From: Natronolimnobius sp. AArcel1
GTDB lineage: Archaea; Halobacteriota; Halobacteria; Halobacteriales; Natrialbaceae
Length of the DNA stretch: 64,000 bases
NCBI RefSeq assembly: GCF_011043775.1
Contig: NZ_JAAKXY010000001.1
Coordinates: 721,617 to 785,616 of the forward strand
Reading direction: 5' to 3'
The position numbers and the translations under genes are program-made. Of the stretch, positions 6,480-23,987 are shown in pieces (within the stretch, counting starts at the first letter, position 1; every line of letters begins with the position of its first letter). Under the pieces are notes generated by a model. That model saw nothing but the letters and a program-made list of their open reading frames with translations, made no database searches and had not been told where the DNA came from.

Positions 6480-7559
6480 ATGGCTACACAGACGGAGACT
6501 GTCAGGCTTGGTGTCGTTGGCCTCGGATTTATGGGGCAAACTCACGCGACGAATGCGACGGATCTCGGCCACGAAGTCGTCGCGGGTGCGGACGTCGTCC
6601 CCGAAACACGCGAGGAGTTCGCCCAGTCCTTCGGCGCGACGACCTACGAGGACGTTGCGGCGATGTACGACGAGGAAGCCCTCGACGCGGTCGCCGTCTC
6701 CACACCAAACGCGTTCCACGAGGATGCCGTCGTCGCCGCCCTCGAGCGAGGCTACGACGTGCTCTGTGAGAAGCCACTCGCAAACGACCTCGCGAGCGCC
6801 GAACGGATCGCTGCGGCGGCCGCGGACTCGGATGGCTTCTGCATGGTGAACTTCCACAACCGCATCTCGACCGCGACGGAAGTGTTCAAAGACTACCAGC
6901 GGGAGGGCCACTTCGGCGAGATTACCCACGTCGACGCGAACTACGTCCGCCGCCGAGGAATCCCCGGTGTCGGCTCGTGGTTCACCGAAAAAGCGCTCTC
7001 CGGCGGCGGCGCGGTCGTCGATATCGGCGTCCACGCCATCGACTTCGCGCTCTATCTCATGGACTACCCCGACGTCGAGGACGTCTTCGCAGTCACCCGA
7101 ACCGAATTCGGCCACCGCGAGGACTACGTCGACCCCGGTGACTGGTACGACGAAACCGAGGACGCCGTCTTCGACGTCGAGGACTCCGCCACCGCGATGA
7201 TCCGGTGTGCCGACGACCGAACGATTTCGCTCGAGGTCACCTGGGCGGCCAACCAGCCCGGAACACAGGAGTTCGTTGCGCGCGGCACCGAGGCTGGCGC
7301 GACACTCGATCTCGGTGGCGAGGAGTTGACGATGTTCCAGAGCGGAACCCAGGGCACTGACCATACGCTCGATGTGACGCTCAGCGACGGTGCAATTGAC
7401 CGCACCGGGTGGGAGGGCAGCGACGAGCGCTTCCTCGAGGCCGTCGCGGCGGGCGAGGCTCCTGAACTGAACACCGTCGATCAGGGCCTGACTGTCCAGC
7501 GCGTCATCGATGCGATCTATCGCTCCGCCGAAGCAGGCACGTCAGTATCTGTCGAATAA
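6480..7559 (+). CDS. Gfo/Idh/MocA-family NAD(P)-dependent oxidoreductase
   Basis: 359 aa. The N-terminal Rossmann domain has GVVGLGFMGQTHA, and the family signature CEKPLAND places the conserved lysine of the EKP motif. The C-terminal alpha/beta domain includes GGGAVVDIGVHAIDFALYLM, whose DxGxHxxD residues line the substrate site. Such enzymes oxidise or reduce sugars, inositols or related cyclic polyols; the substrate is not predictable here. Start set at MATQTETVRLG, since the frame upstream has no homology to the family. Intact member of the duplicated unit that begins at 5036. Confidence 0.88.
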   Translation: MATQTETVRLGVVGLGFMGQTHATNATDLGHEVVAGADVVPETREEFAQSFGATTYEDVAAMYDEEALDAVAVSTPNAFHEDAVVAALERGYDVLCEKPLANDLASAERIAAAAADSDGFCMVNFHNRISTATEVFKDYQREGHFGEITHVDANYVRRRGIPGVGSWFTEKALSGGGAVVDIGVHAIDFALYLMDYPDVEDVFAVTRTEFGHREDYVDPGDWYDETEDAVFDVEDSATAMIRCADDRTISLEVTWAANQPGTQEFVARGTEAGATLDLGGEELTMFQSGTQGTDHTLDVTLSDGAIDRTGWEGSDERFLEAVAAGEAPELNTVDQGLTVQRVIDAIYRSAEAGTSVSVE

Positions 7560-7585
7560 CTATCGAAAAGCAAAGATAGATTGCC

Positions 7586-8602
7586 TTAGCGCTGTGAATC
7601 GCGCAGAATCAGCGGGCCAATCGCGAGCGTCCGTTTCGCAGCTGTTGCGACCCGCATGATGTAGGTCGTCAGGAGGAAGAAGGGGATAAGCGTGAACGTA
7701 AACGTCACGGCGACGAGCCAGAGCAGAACCTCGACGCCGAGGATTGTGCCGGTAATCGTCGTCGTGTCGACGAACGTCATCATCATCCCGGAAACGAGCA
7801 GCGCAGGAATCGCCGCATAGAGAATGTACCGGGAGAGGTTGATGAGTTCCCACTGGAAGTACAGCGTCTTGATGTGCTCGCGTGCGGGGCCGAACATGGC
7901 GAACGACGAGCGCAGATCGTCGAGTGCCTCGTCCTGTTCTTCATCAATTACGTCGCCGTAATCGGCTTTGAGCCGCTCGATCTGGAAAATCTTCCACGAA
8001 TAGTTGTAGTCCATCGACGCATAGACCACGTCGAACGTCCCGAACGACGCACCGTCTAATTCCTCGCGGACGGTCTCAGCGTTGCCCACGATGCTGTCGA
8101 CGAACTCGTTGACCTCGTCTTTGAGATCGTCGTTATCGGTGCGTTCGATTTCATCCTCGAGTGCTTCGGCTCGCACCTGTGTCGCATCGACGATTTCGCG
8201 CAGAAACGCGGAGGGATCAGCTGGCGCTGGTTTGTCGGTCAACTCCTGAATGTACGATCGAAAGTCGAGTGTCTCACTCATTCGGGTTCGTTGCTCACCG
8301 AGCGGGCCGTTTTCCTGCGAGATGATGAGCTGGCTGATGGTGACGACCAGTGTGACACCGGTGATCAGCGAGCCGATCATCTGGGCGTACAGCGACTCGA
8401 TAACGTTTCGGTCCTGCAACAGACCCGAGAGCGTCGGATCGAGTAGGGCTCCGAGCATGAACAGGACGAAAAACGAGAGCGCGAGGACGCCCGTGACGAG
8501 CAGGCGGTTCGCACCAACGAGCACCCATAGTTTGGCCCGGCTCTCGTCGGCTCGCTCGCGCATCGTGTCTTCGGTCGAGACCTGATCGTCGCTCTCACTC
8601 AT
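7586..8602 (-). CDS. Membrane protein with four predicted helices, 338 aa
   Basis: Two hydrophobic helices near the N-terminus (LLVTGVLALSFFVLFMLGALL and MIGSLITGVTLVVTISQLII), a long acidic cytoplasmic or coiled central region (about residues 110-255), then two more helices (YILYAAIPALLVSGMMMTFV and VEVLLWLVAVTFTFTLIPFFLL). Start placed at MSESDDQVS, whose ATG overlaps the end of the upstream DUF4177 gene by 8 bases and suggests translational coupling. No family recognised. The symmetrical 2+2 helix plan suggests a homo-oligomeric integral membrane protein. Confidence 0.75.
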   Translation of the reverse strand: MSESDDQVSTEDTMRERADESRAKLWVLVGANRLLVTGVLALSFFVLFMLGALLDPTLSGLLQDRNVIESLYAQMIGSLITGVTLVVTISQLIISQENGPLGEQRTRMSETLDFRSYIQELTDKPAPADPSAFLREIVDATQVRAEALEDEIERTDNDDLKDEVNEFVDSIVGNAETVREELDGASFGTFDVVYASMDYNYSWKIFQIERLKADYGDVIDEEQDEALDDLRSSFAMFGPAREHIKTLYFQWELINLSRYILYAAIPALLVSGMMMTFVDTTTITGTILGVEVLLWLVAVTFTFTLIPFFLLTTYIMRVATAAKRTLAIGPLILRDSQR

Positions 8603-8801
8603 CGCTGTCACCGCTTTTCGGCCGCTTAAAGACGAGATACTTTGTCCCGCCACCGGTGTACTCTATCGTCGTCACCAGTTCCCAGCCGTCCGCTCCGAGG
8701 TCGTTCAACTGCGTCGTCGGATCTTTCGCCTCCTCCATCGTCGCCTCACGAGGCGGACGAAGCGTCCGGTACTCCCAGATCGTCTGGCGAGATGTCTCCA
8801 T
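8595..8801 (-). CDS. DUF4177 small protein
   Basis: 68 aa: METSRQTIWEYRTLRPPRE, LNDLGADGWELVTTIEYTGGG, KYLVFKRPK. The LNxLGxxGWELV core followed by a strand ending in LVFKR is the DUF4177 signature. Function unknown; these are small alpha/beta proteins found in bacteria and archaea. Its last codons overlap the start of the membrane protein at 8602, so the two are likely one operon. Confidence 0.82.
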   Translation of the reverse strand: METSRQTIWEYRTLRPPREATMEEAKDPTTQLNDLGADGWELVTTIEYTGGGTKYLVFKRPKSGDSDE

Positions 8802-18337: not shown

Positions 18338-19255
18338 ATGCAGACCCACATCGTTCCGGTCGGCTTCGACTACGACCGGCTGATCGCGCCCCTCGTCCGC
18401 GATCAGATCGACGTCGAGCGCGTCATCTTGCTCGAGGGAGCCGTCGGGAGCGAGGCCAACGTCGAGTACTCCCGGCATCTCTCGGAGAAACTCGAGACGG
18501 ACTTTCGAAACTTACTGGGCGCGAGCACTGAGCGATTCATTCTCGAGGATGTCTACGACTACGACGAGGCGTTCGAGCAGGCCTACGACCTCATCACGGC
18601 CGAACTGGACCGCGGCAACGAGGTCTGGGTTAACGTCGCCGCAATGCCTCGAACGGTGAGTTTCGCGTTCGCGACCGCCGCCAACTCGCTGATGGTCGAA
18701 CGCGAAGACGACCGCGAGCAGATCCACACCTACTACACGGCTCCCGAGAAGTACCTCGAGACCGAACTCGCTGAGGAACTACGTGAGCAGATCGCCTTGC
18801 TCGAGGACCTCAAGGACGAACGCGACGCAGCCGACGATATTATCGACGACGAACGGATCGACACCCGTCTCGAGAGCGCCCGCGATCTGCTCTCGGAGTT
18901 CGACGAGCGCGGGACGACGATTGGCGCAAAAGAGATCGACGGCCGCCACATCGTCGAGTTACCCGTCGCTTCGTTTTCGAACGTCAAGCCCTTCGAGGAG
19001 CTAATTCTCTACAAGTTAGGCGAGGACGGTGAGTTTGACTCCGTCTCCGAACTCGCAGAATCGCTCTCGAGCGAGCTCAACGAGGAGTACACCGACAGTT
19101 TCCGCTCGAAGGTCATCTACAACGTCGACCGGCTTGGCCCGGGCGGCAAGGGCTACATCGAGCGCGAGGAACACGGCAAATCGTATCGGACGCGCCTCTC
19201 GCGTATCGGCGAGTTGTGGGTCCGTGCACACTCGGACGGCCCAGGGTCGCCGTAA
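18338..19255 (+). CDS. HFX_2341-type transcriptional regulator (CARF-like N-domain + wHTH)
   Basis: 305 aa starting MQTHIVPVGFDYDRLIAPL. The N-terminal half (about 1-140) has alternating strands and helices with a glycine-containing turn after the first strand and a SFAFATAANSLM helix, reminiscent of the Rossmann-like CARF ligand-binding domain. The C-terminal part (about 210-305) reads as a winged helix (FDSVSELAESLSSELNEEY, SRIGELWVRAH). The match to the haloarchaeal HFX_2341 regulator family is from memory. It converges on the M50 gene, whose stop is 30 bases away. No CRISPR-cas genes are nearby. Confidence 0.75.
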   Translation: MQTHIVPVGFDYDRLIAPLVRDQIDVERVILLEGAVGSEANVEYSRHLSEKLETDFRNLLGASTERFILEDVYDYDEAFEQAYDLITAELDRGNEVWVNVAAMPRTVSFAFATAANSLMVEREDDREQIHTYYTAPEKYLETELAEELREQIALLEDLKDERDAADDIIDDERIDTRLESARDLLSEFDERGTTIGAKEIDGRHIVELPVASFSNVKPFEELILYKLGEDGEFDSVSELAESLSSELNEEYTDSFRSKVIYNVDRLGPGGKGYIEREEHGKSYRTRLSRIGELWVRAHSDGPGSP

Positions 19256-19285: not shown

Positions 19286-20212
19286 TCAGACGAGGCCGAA
19301 CACCGTCGCCAGAATTGCGATATTGAGGCCGACGAACCCGATAGTGAAGATAACAGCCGAGAGCGCGTACACCGCCGGTCCCGAGAGAATGCGGTGCTCG
19401 AGGTCGCGAAAGCCTTGCGTCCGCAGGTTGTGCCAGCCGAAGGCATCGACGAGCGCCCAGTAGCCGTCGCCCTCGATGAGGGGGTTCAGGACGAACAGCG
19501 CGCGTGCGGCGATGAGAAGTGCCAGAAAGCCGAAGATGGGCTGACCGGGGACGATGACGAACGCGACGGCGAAGCCAGTCGCGACGAGCAGGTCGACGAA
19601 CGGGCCGGCGAGACTGATCCAGAGGCGCACGTTTCGCGGGCAGCGCCAGGCGTCGGTCGTCCGCGTGATGATTGCGGGAATAACCTTGTTCAACAGCCCG
19701 ATTCGAAGCTGTGGGTCGAAGTAGCGCCGACTTGGGACGTAGTGACCGAGTTCGTGGAGCGCAATCGAACCAAGGAGGATGGGCAAGACGATCAGCGCAA
19801 GTCCGAGGCCGAACTCGAGGTCAGCGGGCAACTGTCGGAGTTCGGGCCAGCGGACCGCAAGACAGCCGACGAGCAGTGTCGCTGTCGCGGCGACGGCGCC
19901 GAGTCGCGGCCACAGTCGAATATCCGGCGGCGGCTGCTCGTGGACAATTTCGCCGCCGGGCTCGAGGTAGCCCTCAGAAGCCAGTAACACGACCGTCTCG
20001 CGGACGCGCTCGTCGTGGTCGGTGGGGTCACTCGAGCCAGTCGCGATCTCACGCAGTTGCTCGAAAAAGACCGGGTGGACGCGCTTGTACGACCCCTCGT
20101 CAGTGCGCAGCCAGGTCGTGCCGTCGGTTTCTCCCCAGGTAAAGCCGAACGGCTCGCGAAAGAGCGCCTCGAGGTCGAGCGTTCGGTCGTCGGTATCGCG
20201 TGCAGCGCACAT
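19286..20212 (-). CDS. M50-type membrane zinc protease with PqqD-like N-domain (putative RiPP protease/transporter)
   Basis: 308 aa. Residues 1-85 are soluble, with a PqqD/RRE-like plan (SYKRVHPVFFEQLREIATG, then VRETVVLLASEGYLEPGG). About 100-308 has six hydrophobic helices. HELGH (H153, E154, H157) lies in a membrane helix, and LNPLIEGDGYW (N243, D249) resembles the second M50 motif NPxxDG. M50 proteins cut substrates within or beside the membrane; PqqD-like domains bind leader peptides of ribosomally made peptides. It starts 2 bases after the stop of the ATP-grasp gene, so the two are one operon. Role in maturing the 39-aa peptide at 21349 is inference. Confidence 0.8.
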   Translation of the reverse strand: MCAARDTDDRTLDLEALFREPFGFTWGETDGTTWLRTDEGSYKRVHPVFFEQLREIATGSSDPTDHDERVRETVVLLASEGYLEPGGEIVHEQPPPDIRLWPRLGAVAATATLLVGCLAVRWPELRQLPADLEFGLGLALIVLPILLGSIALHELGHYVPSRRYFDPQLRIGLLNKVIPAIITRTTDAWRCPRNVRLWISLAGPFVDLLVATGFAVAFVIVPGQPIFGFLALLIAARALFVLNPLIEGDGYWALVDAFGWHNLRTQGFRDLEHRILSGPAVYALSAVIFTIGFVGLNIAILATVFGLV

Positions 20213-20214
20213 GG

Positions 20215-21165
20215 TTACGCTGTGGTGGAGTCCGTCTCGGTTGGCGTCGCAAGCAGATCCGCGAGCGCGCCGGCAACGTCCGTTCCCGCCTTGTCGTCGA
20301 ACGCCGCGAACATCGGTGAGGGGTTTGCCTCGAGGACGGAACAGCTATCGTCGGTGTCGATCACGTCGACGCCCGAAAACGCCAATCCGAGACAGTCCGT
20401 CGCAGTAATAGCGGCCTCGGCAATCGCGGGCTCGAGCGCGGAGAGTGGAATGCGTTCGACGTCGTGGTCGGCCGTTCGATAATCGAGTTCAGTGGAGATG
20501 ATTCGGGCAGCAGCAACGACCTCACCGTCGACGACGAAGACGCGGATATCCTCGCCGTCGATGTACTCCTGGAACTGAACGGGCGAGTTTGCGAGCAACG
20601 AGAGCCGGTCGTCCTCGAGATCGTCGGGCGAAAGCACCGCCGCGTGGCCGCCGCCGCTGACCGGTTTGTAGATGATTTTTCCCACTCGGTCCGCGAACGC
20701 ACGCACTTCATCAGGGGTGGTCGTCGTCAACGTTTCCGGGATTGGAACGCCAGCAGCAGCGAGTCGCTCGAGTTGCCACGGCTTGCGAGTATGCAGGTCC
20801 TGCGTCTCGAGTGGGTTAACCATCCGGACGCCACGAGCCTCGAGCGAGTAGAGCATCGACTCGAGGGTCGCCTGATACTCACGGAGTTGGTTGAGCAAGG
20901 CGAATGGGTGATCCTCGAGGTCGTCTCGGTACTCGGGTAGTCGCGGGTTGAGCGCGAAGTTCCGAAGGTAGGCCGTGTGAACCTCGTCAACGCTCGTTCC
21001 GCCGACCGAGAGCCGTGTCTGGTCGCCCTGACGGTAGGTTAGCATTCCCGAACCGGGCCAGTCGTCGGCATCCCACACGCAGGTCTCGACGCCTCGCGTC
21101 TCGAGTGTACGCTCGACAGCGGCGAGTTGCGGGTCCGATCGAGGGCCAAGGAGTAACACACTCAT
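20215..21165 (-). CDS. ATP-grasp ligase, MvdD/RimK-like (putative graspetide-type enzyme)
   Basis: 316 aa. Residues 1-115 form a pre-ATP-grasp domain (VLLLGPRSDPQLAAVERTL, TAYLRNFALNPRLPEY). About 120-300 is the ATP-grasp core: LHTRKPWQLERLAAAGVPIPETL, KIIYKPVSGGGHA (K167), FQEYIDGEDIRVFVV (E200, R208), LGLAFSGVDVID (D267) and LEANPSP (E279, N281) for ATP and Mg2+. The order matches ATP-grasp peptide maturases that join acidic side chains to Ser/Thr/Lys, as well as RimK-type glutamate ligases. First gene of an operon with the M50 protease and divergent from the small peptide gene. Reaction not provable from sequence. Confidence 0.85.
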   Translation of the reverse strand: MSVLLLGPRSDPQLAAVERTLETRGVETCVWDADDWPGSGMLTYRQGDQTRLSVGGTSVDEVHTAYLRNFALNPRLPEYRDDLEDHPFALLNQLREYQATLESMLYSLEARGVRMVNPLETQDLHTRKPWQLERLAAAGVPIPETLTTTTPDEVRAFADRVGKIIYKPVSGGGHAAVLSPDDLEDDRLSLLANSPVQFQEYIDGEDIRVFVVDGEVVAAARIISTELDYRTADHDVERIPLSALEPAIAEAAITATDCLGLAFSGVDVIDTDDSCSVLEANPSPMFAAFDDKAGTDVAGALADLLATPTETDSTTA

Positions 21166-21348
21166 AACGGAGTGCGTGCGCTCGATGCTAATAAATTTGT
21201 TACAATGTTTTTATTTTGGAATTATGTGTGGGATGAACGGGCAACAGATCAGAGGTTTCCAGTGCACCTTTCTTTCGCTAAAATACTATTTAACCTAATT
21301 TATTATGTGGTGTGTTTATTTGATAACGCGGCGTATCGACAACCGGCT
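21166..21348. promoter_or_regulatory. AT-rich divergent promoter region of the ATP-grasp/peptide cluster
   Basis: Markedly AT-rich against the flanking genes. For the minus strand, TTTATTAG (complement of 21188-21195) lies 27 bases before the ATP-grasp ATG. For the plus strand, TTTATTTGATAA (21315-21326) lies about 29 bases before the peptide ATG. Both spacings predict leaderless transcripts from a shared control region, the expected layout for one regulated system. Confidence 0.65.
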
Positions 21349-21468
21349 ATGAGCCACTCCAACGACCCGATACACTTCGTCGAAGACCTCGAGGAGCGAT
21401 CAAACGCAACGACACTCGGCGACGTCACGACTATGGCGACGGGCGAGTGTCCGGAGAAGTGCTGGTAA
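21349..21468 (+). CDS. 39-aa peptide, candidate RiPP precursor
   Basis: Begins MSHSNDPIHFVEDLEER and ends ATGECPEKCW. It has the precursor layout: an acidic, helix-prone N-terminal part (FVEDLEER) that could be a leader, a Thr-rich middle (NATTLGDVTTMATG), and a short C-terminus with two Cys, two Glu, Lys and Trp. Asp/Glu plus Thr/Lys are the side chains that ATP-grasp graspetide enzymes join. A TATA element is correctly spaced upstream. It is divergent from the ATP-grasp/M50 operon. Alternative: a small zinc-knuckle regulator or an unmodified secreted peptide. The upstream part of the open frame (from 21172) is AT-rich promoter sequence, not coding. Confidence 0.6.
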   Translation: MSHSNDPIHFVEDLEERSNATTLGDVTTMATGECPEKCW

Positions 21469-22804: not shown

Positions 22805-23494
22805 ATGAACAGAGAGCCAGTTCAACAGAGGCCGAATATGGATGGGACCCACGTGTGCCTTCCAGTTCCCGTTGCTGAGTCGGGTCTCTTCCGACATACT
22901 GCGACAGCTCATATTCTCCAGTTGCTCACGGATAATCCGGATCGAGTGTTCAGCAACCGCCAACTCCAGCGATTGACCGGAAAGGGGATGGGAAACATCA
23001 ACAGCGCTGTACGCGCGCTGGAAGCGACAGGGGTAATCACAGTCGAGAGAGACAGTCGCGCAAATCAAATCTCGATCACTGCATCACACCTCTGCAAGCC
23101 GGATGATCGTATCACGCAGGTCCCACAGGCGGAGTTTCAGCAACCAATTCGGGACGCCATCACGCGACTCGAGGACATGACGACCGTCGAGTTCGGGGTG
23201 GTTTTGTTCGGCAGTGTCGCTCGAGGTGATGCGGACCGAGCCAGCGACGTCGACCTATTCGTCGTCGTTCCAGAGAATCGAATGACAGTACAGCGAACGG
23301 CCCACGAAATCGAGAACGAGATCGCCACGGAACGCTTCGATGGTGATCGCTATGAGTTCCACATTGTCGTCGAAACGCAAGCGTCTGCACCGACTCACGA
23401 CCGAATTGCGGACATTCTCACTGAGGGACTGACGCTCCGAACGGCACCTGCGCTGGACATCGTGAAACAGGAGGTGTTCGAGCATGGGTCTTGA
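22805..23494 (+). CDS. HTH-fused minimal nucleotidyltransferase (MNT, antitoxin-like)
   Basis: 229 aa. Residues about 25-95 form a winged helix (ATAHILQLLTDNPDRVFSNRQLQRLTG, then AVRALEATGVITVERDS). About 110-225 is a DNA-polymerase-beta-type nucleotidyltransferase with GSVARGDADRASDVDLFVV, whose GS and DxD residues bind nucleotide and Mg2+. MNT proteins pair with HEPN RNases, in some cases inactivating them by AMPylation. The fused HTH could provide autoregulation. Overlaps the HEPN-like gene by 11 bases. A second in-frame ATG at 22838 is an alternative start. Confidence 0.8.
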   Translation: MNREPVQQRPNMDGTHVCLPVPVAESGLFRHTATAHILQLLTDNPDRVFSNRQLQRLTGKGMGNINSAVRALEATGVITVERDSRANQISITASHLCKPDDRITQVPQAEFQQPIRDAITRLEDMTTVEFGVVLFGSVARGDADRASDVDLFVVVPENRMTVQRTAHEIENEIATERFDGDRYEFHIVVETQASAPTHDRIADILTEGLTLRTAPALDIVKQEVFEHGS

Positions 23495-23987
23495 GGATGT
23501 CGTGAGCGCTGTTGACCACGTAGAACAACTGCTCGCAGATGGCGAAACTGGTCCCGTTCAGGACTCGCTCTCCTGGCAGCGCTCGGATGCCGATATTCAA
23601 CTGGGGAAAGCCTGTGCGATGTTGGGAACGTGCCGTCAGCTTCGCGACGGAACGAACAACAACGTGAGTATCGTCGAACTCTCTTTCAACGCAATCGAAC
23701 GGTCGCTGCAGTTCTATCTCGTCGATATGACAGCTGCGGAATCAGCGGATTACCACGAACATGGCGATGTCTATCAGGATATCGAAACTCGTGGTGTGTT
23801 TTCCGACGAAGACATCGCAGATCGCATCGACAGCTTCCGGGCGGAACACCGGTCTCGGATCTACTACGATATCGATAAACCTGGCCGCGATCTCGCACTT
23901 GGAATGCACGATCTTGCAGAGATAGTTCACTCCTATATCGTCACGTTTGCTGATGCACACTCTCGGTGTAGTTGTAACAGGAACTGA
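23484..23987 (+). CDS. HEPN-like protein, putative toxin partner of MNT
   Basis: 167 aa, mostly helical. IVELSFNAIERSLQFYLVDMT resembles the first long helix of HEPN domains, and FRAEHRSRIYYDIDKPGRDLA sits where the Rx4-6H RNase motif is expected, though the terminal His appears replaced by Tyr. The 11-base overlap with the MNT gene and matching order support a HEPN-MNT module. A Cys/Arg/Asn C-terminal tail (RCSCNRN) is unusual. Toxicity is inference. Confidence 0.65.
   Translation: MGLEDVVSAVDHVEQLLADGETGPVQDSLSWQRSDADIQLGKACAMLGTCRQLRDGTNNNVSIVELSFNAIERSLQFYLVDMTAAESADYHEHGDVYQDIETRGVFSDEDIADRIDSFRAEHRSRIYYDIDKPGRDLALGMHDLAEIVHSYIVTFADAHSRCSCNRN

Follow-up and report, generated by a model that had tools for sequence, protein, structure and literature searches.

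The window (the whole stretch of 64,000 nucleotides that was analysed) contained three adjacent genes that are described here as one cassette. A gene for a 39-aa peptide, the putative precursor, was located on the plus strand at 21349–21468, running from the ATG at 21349 to the TAA ending at 21468, with the sequence MSHSNDPIHFVEDLEERSNATTLGDVTTMATGECPEKCW. On the minus strand, the gene at 20215–21165 encoded a 316-aa protein that was predicted from sequence and fold matches to be a PsnB-like ATP-grasp macrocyclase. The gene at 19286–20212, also on the minus strand, encoded a 308-aa M50-type membrane metalloprotease with HELGH and NPLIEGDG motifs. The ATP-grasp and M50 genes were separated by 2 bases. 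These positions, the divergent 39-aa reading frame, the 2-base spacing and both protease motifs were as the first-pass annotation had reported them. The intergenic region between the divergent genes (21166–21348, 183 bp) had a GC content of 39%, compared to 60.8% for the window, and it aligned poorly between species. It had been described as an AT-rich promoter containing a TATA element. The AT-rich composition was evident, but no TATA element was confirmed by conservation in the interspecies alignment of the region. In addition, at 22805–23987 on the plus strand, a nucleotidyltransferase gene (PF01909) overlapped a 167-aa gene that had no Pfam match. The two genes are presumably arranged as an MNT/HEPN-type pair.

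The 39-aa reading frame was compared with that of a sister species (G001). Eight synonymous and 2 non-synonymous codon changes were observed, and the base changes at codon positions 1, 2 and 3 were 1, 0 and 10, respectively. Since 10 of the 11 substitutions were at the third position while the promoter region aligned poorly, the reading frame is, judged by its codons, a genuine gene under purifying selection. The start codons lined up across species, and the sequence upstream of them did not. The peptide was thus kept while the promoter was not, which is the reverse of the pattern that the first-pass annotation had set against its own proposal. The precursor was present in 9 genomes of the family, in which the leader sequence HFVEDLEER was fully invariant. 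A near-identical peptide was found in four genomes other than that of the window, and four others in the family had the same leader with a different core. In the window precursor, the leader was assigned as MSHSNDPIHFVEDLEERSNA and the putative core as TTLGDVTTMATGECPEKCW; between loci, the leader was conserved and the core was variable.

The precursor, ATP-grasp and M50 genes occurred together at 24 loci, which were spread over four or more haloarchaeal families. Among 125 genomes of the window's family, nine carried the precursor, the ATP-grasp and a full M50 gene together, and the overlap of precursor and full M50 in these 9 genomes had a P of about 6e-12. In other families of the order, 15 further ATP-grasp/M50 loci were found, and the acidic leader was again present in a short ORF at every one of them; these families included Haloarculaceae and Haladaptataceae members (Halocatena salina, Halorussus salilacus). 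A leave-group-out profile, built with the group of the respective locus withheld, was scored on the 23–93 small ORFs of each locus. The candidate precursor was first at 24/24 loci, where, at the most divergent loci, the initial choice of candidate had been made by eye or regular expression, and the best other ORF reached at most 5.5 bits. In the control, 337 ORFs from unrelated loci scored at most 3.6 bits. The window precursor was rank 1 of 71 small ORFs. The first-pass annotation had proposed, as a check, to see whether a short ORF with an acidic leader always lies divergent from the ATP-grasp gene. Such an ORF accompanied all 24 of the pairs found. Its orientation was not constant: the precursor was divergent from the ATP-grasp gene in the window's family, but it lay 3' of the M50 gene in L071 and L072, and in L073 it shared the strand of the ATP-grasp gene.

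Genes around 22 of the loci were clustered, and only the ATP-grasp and M50 genes were common to all families. No dedicated exporter or immunity gene was common between families in this clustering. An HFX_2341-type gene (PF19810; window 18338–19255, plus strand) adjoined the cassette in 9/9 family genomes, and in G099 the cassette orientation was flipped relative to it. It was considered as a fourth part and rejected, because it was present in 123/125 family genomes and was not shared beyond the family; it therefore marks a shared location only. Decay was also seen (L049, L051, L097). G098 had a 5' frameshift in the ATP-grasp gene, G103 had a degenerate precursor alone, and G020 had a C-terminal fragment of M50. 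At L035 (G043, 7293–8785), a diverged ATP-grasp gene lay beside the gene of a 170-aa membrane protein with the GYTWGE start of M50. No HExxH was present in this protein, and no precursor was found at that locus.

The ATP-grasp protein was compared with known enzymes. A profile of four close relatives searched against the PDB gave the plesiocin enzyme PsnB (7drm) first, with an E-value of 9e-55 over the full length, and the next match had 1.5e-18. With 26 relatives in the profile, the E-value of PsnB was 2.5e-73. The AlphaFold model (pLDDT 90) gave a consistent result in Foldseek, where PsnB was nearest (E 2.9e-29, TM 0.85, 31% identity). The 15 best matches were all PsnB chains, followed by PruB, MdnC, AMdnB and CdnC, with RimK after them. 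E279, N281 and D267 were invariant in the 26 relatives. No curated NCBIfam cut-off was reached; the best model was TIGR04187 (SAV_5884/TgmB), which gave 106.9 bits under a cut-off of 350 and was matched by all 26 relatives. A contig scan with the single ATP-grasp protein gave nothing beyond a distant relative in Gastranaerophilales, and no precursor like that of the window accompanied it. The protein also matched RimK-type ATP-grasp families. In the case of a RimK/PGM1-like activity, the cassette would still be a RiPP system, but the enzyme would ligate amino acids to a side chain or a C-terminus, or use the C-terminal carboxylate, and no Thr-Glu esters would be formed. PsnB and the other graspetide ligases were far above RimK by both sequence and fold, which argues against such an activity.

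The precursor gave a parallel result. With the single peptide, phmmer found no match in the PDB. A profile of eleven haloarchaeal precursors had the plesiocin precursor PsnA2(14–38) as its top match among 177,635 PDB sequences, with an E-value of 0.27 that is weak by itself. FVEDL aligned with FIEDL, and TTLAxGEE aligned with TTLAIGEE. We consider that this match gains weight because PsnA2 is the known substrate of PsnB, the enzyme that was found independently. The earlier graspetide proposal is therefore well founded, since enzyme and precursor were both best matched by the plesiocin pair PsnB/PsnA2. The predicted identity of the enzyme and its substrate is strongly supported. The PsnA2 match also bears on the suggestion that the ORF encodes a conserved small protein that is not a substrate, for example a regulator or partner, with ATP-grasp and M50 acting elsewhere. 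A leader better conserved than the remainder would fit such a protein, as would the divergent cores that lacked acceptor residues. A match to PsnA2, on which the closest enzyme is known to act, would not, and the core type switched with the locus, as RiPP cores do, while TTxxxxEE was exact in seven loci. We regard a non-substrate role as very improbable.

The core of the window precursor, TTMATGECPEKCW (residues 27–39; 21427–21465, plus strand), was delimited by alignment with the TTMALGEE and TTLAIGEE cores of sister loci and PsnA2. It was a TTxxxxEE variant without the second Glu. The residues available for crosslinks were T27, T28, T31, E33, E36 and K37, among which T27/T28 are predicted to be the ester donors and E33/E36 the acceptors. 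The window and four relatives (G001, G018, G023, G133) had TTxxxxE followed by CPEKC, and this core type comprised TTxATGECPEKC(W/S) and a TTTVVGE variant. Exact TTxxxxEE cores were found in seven sister loci. Six of them (G066, G096, G098, G099, G287, G350) had TT[ML]A[LIV]GEE and then a second T-x-x-C-x-ETGC segment, and the core of G385 was TTMAMGEE. The CxxxCW end, which had been expected throughout, was present in 4/24 loci, and a fifth had a variant that ended in CS; it belonged to one core type and was not a general feature. A lanthipeptide-like reading of Thr...Cys was rejected, as no LanM-type gene was shared at the loci.

Several related loci had cores without any Asp/Glu. In the L074–L085 range (Halorussus-type and related), the leader was the same and some cores lacked these residues, for example TVVSTPITWFGG and TYYTGGCIAYC. 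Thr-Glu esters within those cores would be impossible, and the ATP-grasp family may not always make such esters. This favored amino-acid ligation or use of the C-terminal carboxylate, but the window-type and sister cores retained the Thr/Glu spacing of plesiocin. We consider this alternative chemistry improbable for the cassette. In L082, L084 and L085, two ATP-grasp genes and TQHTSxPxDDK cores (TMYTSDPTWDSQ in L084) were observed, which recall two-enzyme microviridin systems.

In the case of the M50 protein, residues H153, E154, H157, P244 and G248-D249-G250 were invariant in 24 members, and N243 was nearly so. All 24 members matched the daptide intramembrane metalloprotease model and Peptidase_M50. 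The window protein scored 71.2 bits with the daptide model (NF041824), under the cut-off of 300, and its score with Pfam Peptidase_M50 was also under the cut-off. The AlphaFold model (pLDDT 89) was helical, with a soluble N-terminal domain at about residues 20–97 that was predicted as three strands and helices. Foldseek with the whole model gave no significant PDB match. The first-pass annotation had called the protein PqqD-like. No Pfam match to PqqD was found in the N-terminus of the 24 members, but profile-profile comparison gave a score of 25.0 (HHalign probability 44%), above 50 column shuffles with a maximum of 21.1 and a next value of 14.6. The label is thus at most suggestive for the N-terminal domain, from the profile comparison, and was confirmed by neither Pfam nor Foldseek. 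In the same genome, a PqqD-family protein at C4:563552–563755 (L121) suggested another RiPP locus.

The M50 protease probably trims the precursor. It resembled the daptide and YydH/LiaK epipeptide proteases, and this resemblance allows a different function, in which M50 would cut the small protein to a signal or pheromone, as in epipeptide/YydF systems, and the product would act on the sensing of envelope stress or density by the producing cell itself. The absence of a dedicated exporter across the clustered loci is in line with such a signal. However, no sensor or regulator was common to the loci, and the adjacent HFX_2341 gene indicates location only. A signaling role is unlikely on this evidence. 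It concerns function and is compatible with graspetide chemistry.

We consider it highly likely that the three genes form a plesiocin-type (PsnA/PsnB) graspetide RiPP cassette. The earlier proposal of a peptide modification and maturation system was supported by the co-occurrence of the genes and the homology to PsnB/PsnA2. In the proposed mechanism, the 39-aa precursor would be expressed from its own divergent gene, and the PsnB-like ATP-grasp would dock on the leader helix HFVEDLEER. The enzyme very probably staples the precursor into rings, as its homology predicts; it would phosphorylate the Glu side chains of the core with ATP and join them to Thr side chains. The product would have hairpin-like macrolactone rings, with T28-E33 inside T27-E36 as the most plausible connectivity, and the two Cys of the core may add a disulfide. 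M50 would perhaps hold the leader by its N-terminal domain and remove it at or in the membrane, and this step would let the ringed peptide out. The graspetides that had been characterised up to 2022 were inhibitors of proteases (PMC8939145), and the product may have a protease-inhibitor or antagonistic function. A broader reading is possible but rather doubtful. The PsnB-type graspetides of haloarchaea might form a separate and diversified branch, defined by precursor, ATP-grasp and M50, in which the membrane-embedded M50 takes over leader removal and release from the peptidase-transporter, and in which one family of the enzymes has moved to Asp/Glu-free cores. If so, these cores would imply an undescribed ring chemistry, such as the C-terminal carboxylate as acceptor.

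Archaeal graspetides as such are not new, since a Thermoprotea-only graspetide group 36 was already predicted in 2026 (PMC13097080). Among the texts searched, no paper joins graspetides with haloarchaea or Halobacteria, although the supplementary lists of PMC13097080 may hold a prior in-silico listing. The main texts of PMC10105419 and PMC12144867 had no mention of graspetide, ATP-grasp or microviridin. The characterised RiPPs of haloarchaea have so far been mainly lanthipeptides. With the present cassette, one clear class of RiPP is represented in cultivable haloarchaea by a precursor, an enzyme and a protease, and an archaeal enzyme is tied directly to the PsnB/PsnA2 pair, whose structure is solved. 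The cassette also suggests an M50 route of leader removal, undescribed for graspetides in the literature searched. Sequences and masses are now defined and open to testing; the tryptic peptide SNATTLGDVTTMATGECPEK has a computed monoisotopic mass of 2024.903 when unmodified. The sister cassettes with cores lacking acidic residues raise a concrete puzzle.

Among known systems, plesiocin (PsnA2/PsnB) of a myxobacterium, which we take to be graspetide group 2 with the TTxxxxEE motif, was the closest. It had the closest enzyme by sequence and fold, a single ATP-grasp, and a F[IV]EDL leader in common with the window, and its TTxxxxEE core was exact in the sister loci. However, its precursor has four core repeats compared to 1–2 in the haloarchaeal precursors, and the window core lacked the EE pair and had an added CPEKCW. 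In group 2 graspetides, the usual partner is an NHLM-type transporter/peptidase (PMC13097080), whereas the window cassette has an M50 protease. The cassette is thus plesiocin-type, a variant by its archaeal host, its core and its protease. The actinobacterial TgmA/TgmB graspetides (TIGR04187) gave the best NCBIfam model for the enzyme, yet PsnB was better in the PDB search. Microviridin MdnB/MdnC shared the graspetide ligase fold, and some Halorussus loci were similar to it in their two ATP-grasps and TQHTSxPxDDK cores. However, the PFFARFL leader was absent from the window, which has one ATP-grasp and another core. The daptide and YydH/LiaK epipeptide metalloproteases, like the protease of the cassette, are membrane proteases of M50 type with HExxH and belong to RiPP clusters, but the window protein was far under their cut-offs (71/300 and 25/225 bits) and the partner enzymes differ. 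Thermoprotea group 36 is likewise a predicted archaeal graspetide, but in another archaeal class; its partner weakly matches a chromosome segregation protein, and M50 is unmentioned (PMC13097080). The haloarchaeal lanthipeptides (PMC10105419, PMC12144867) are also RiPPs of haloarchaea, but they are of LanM type.
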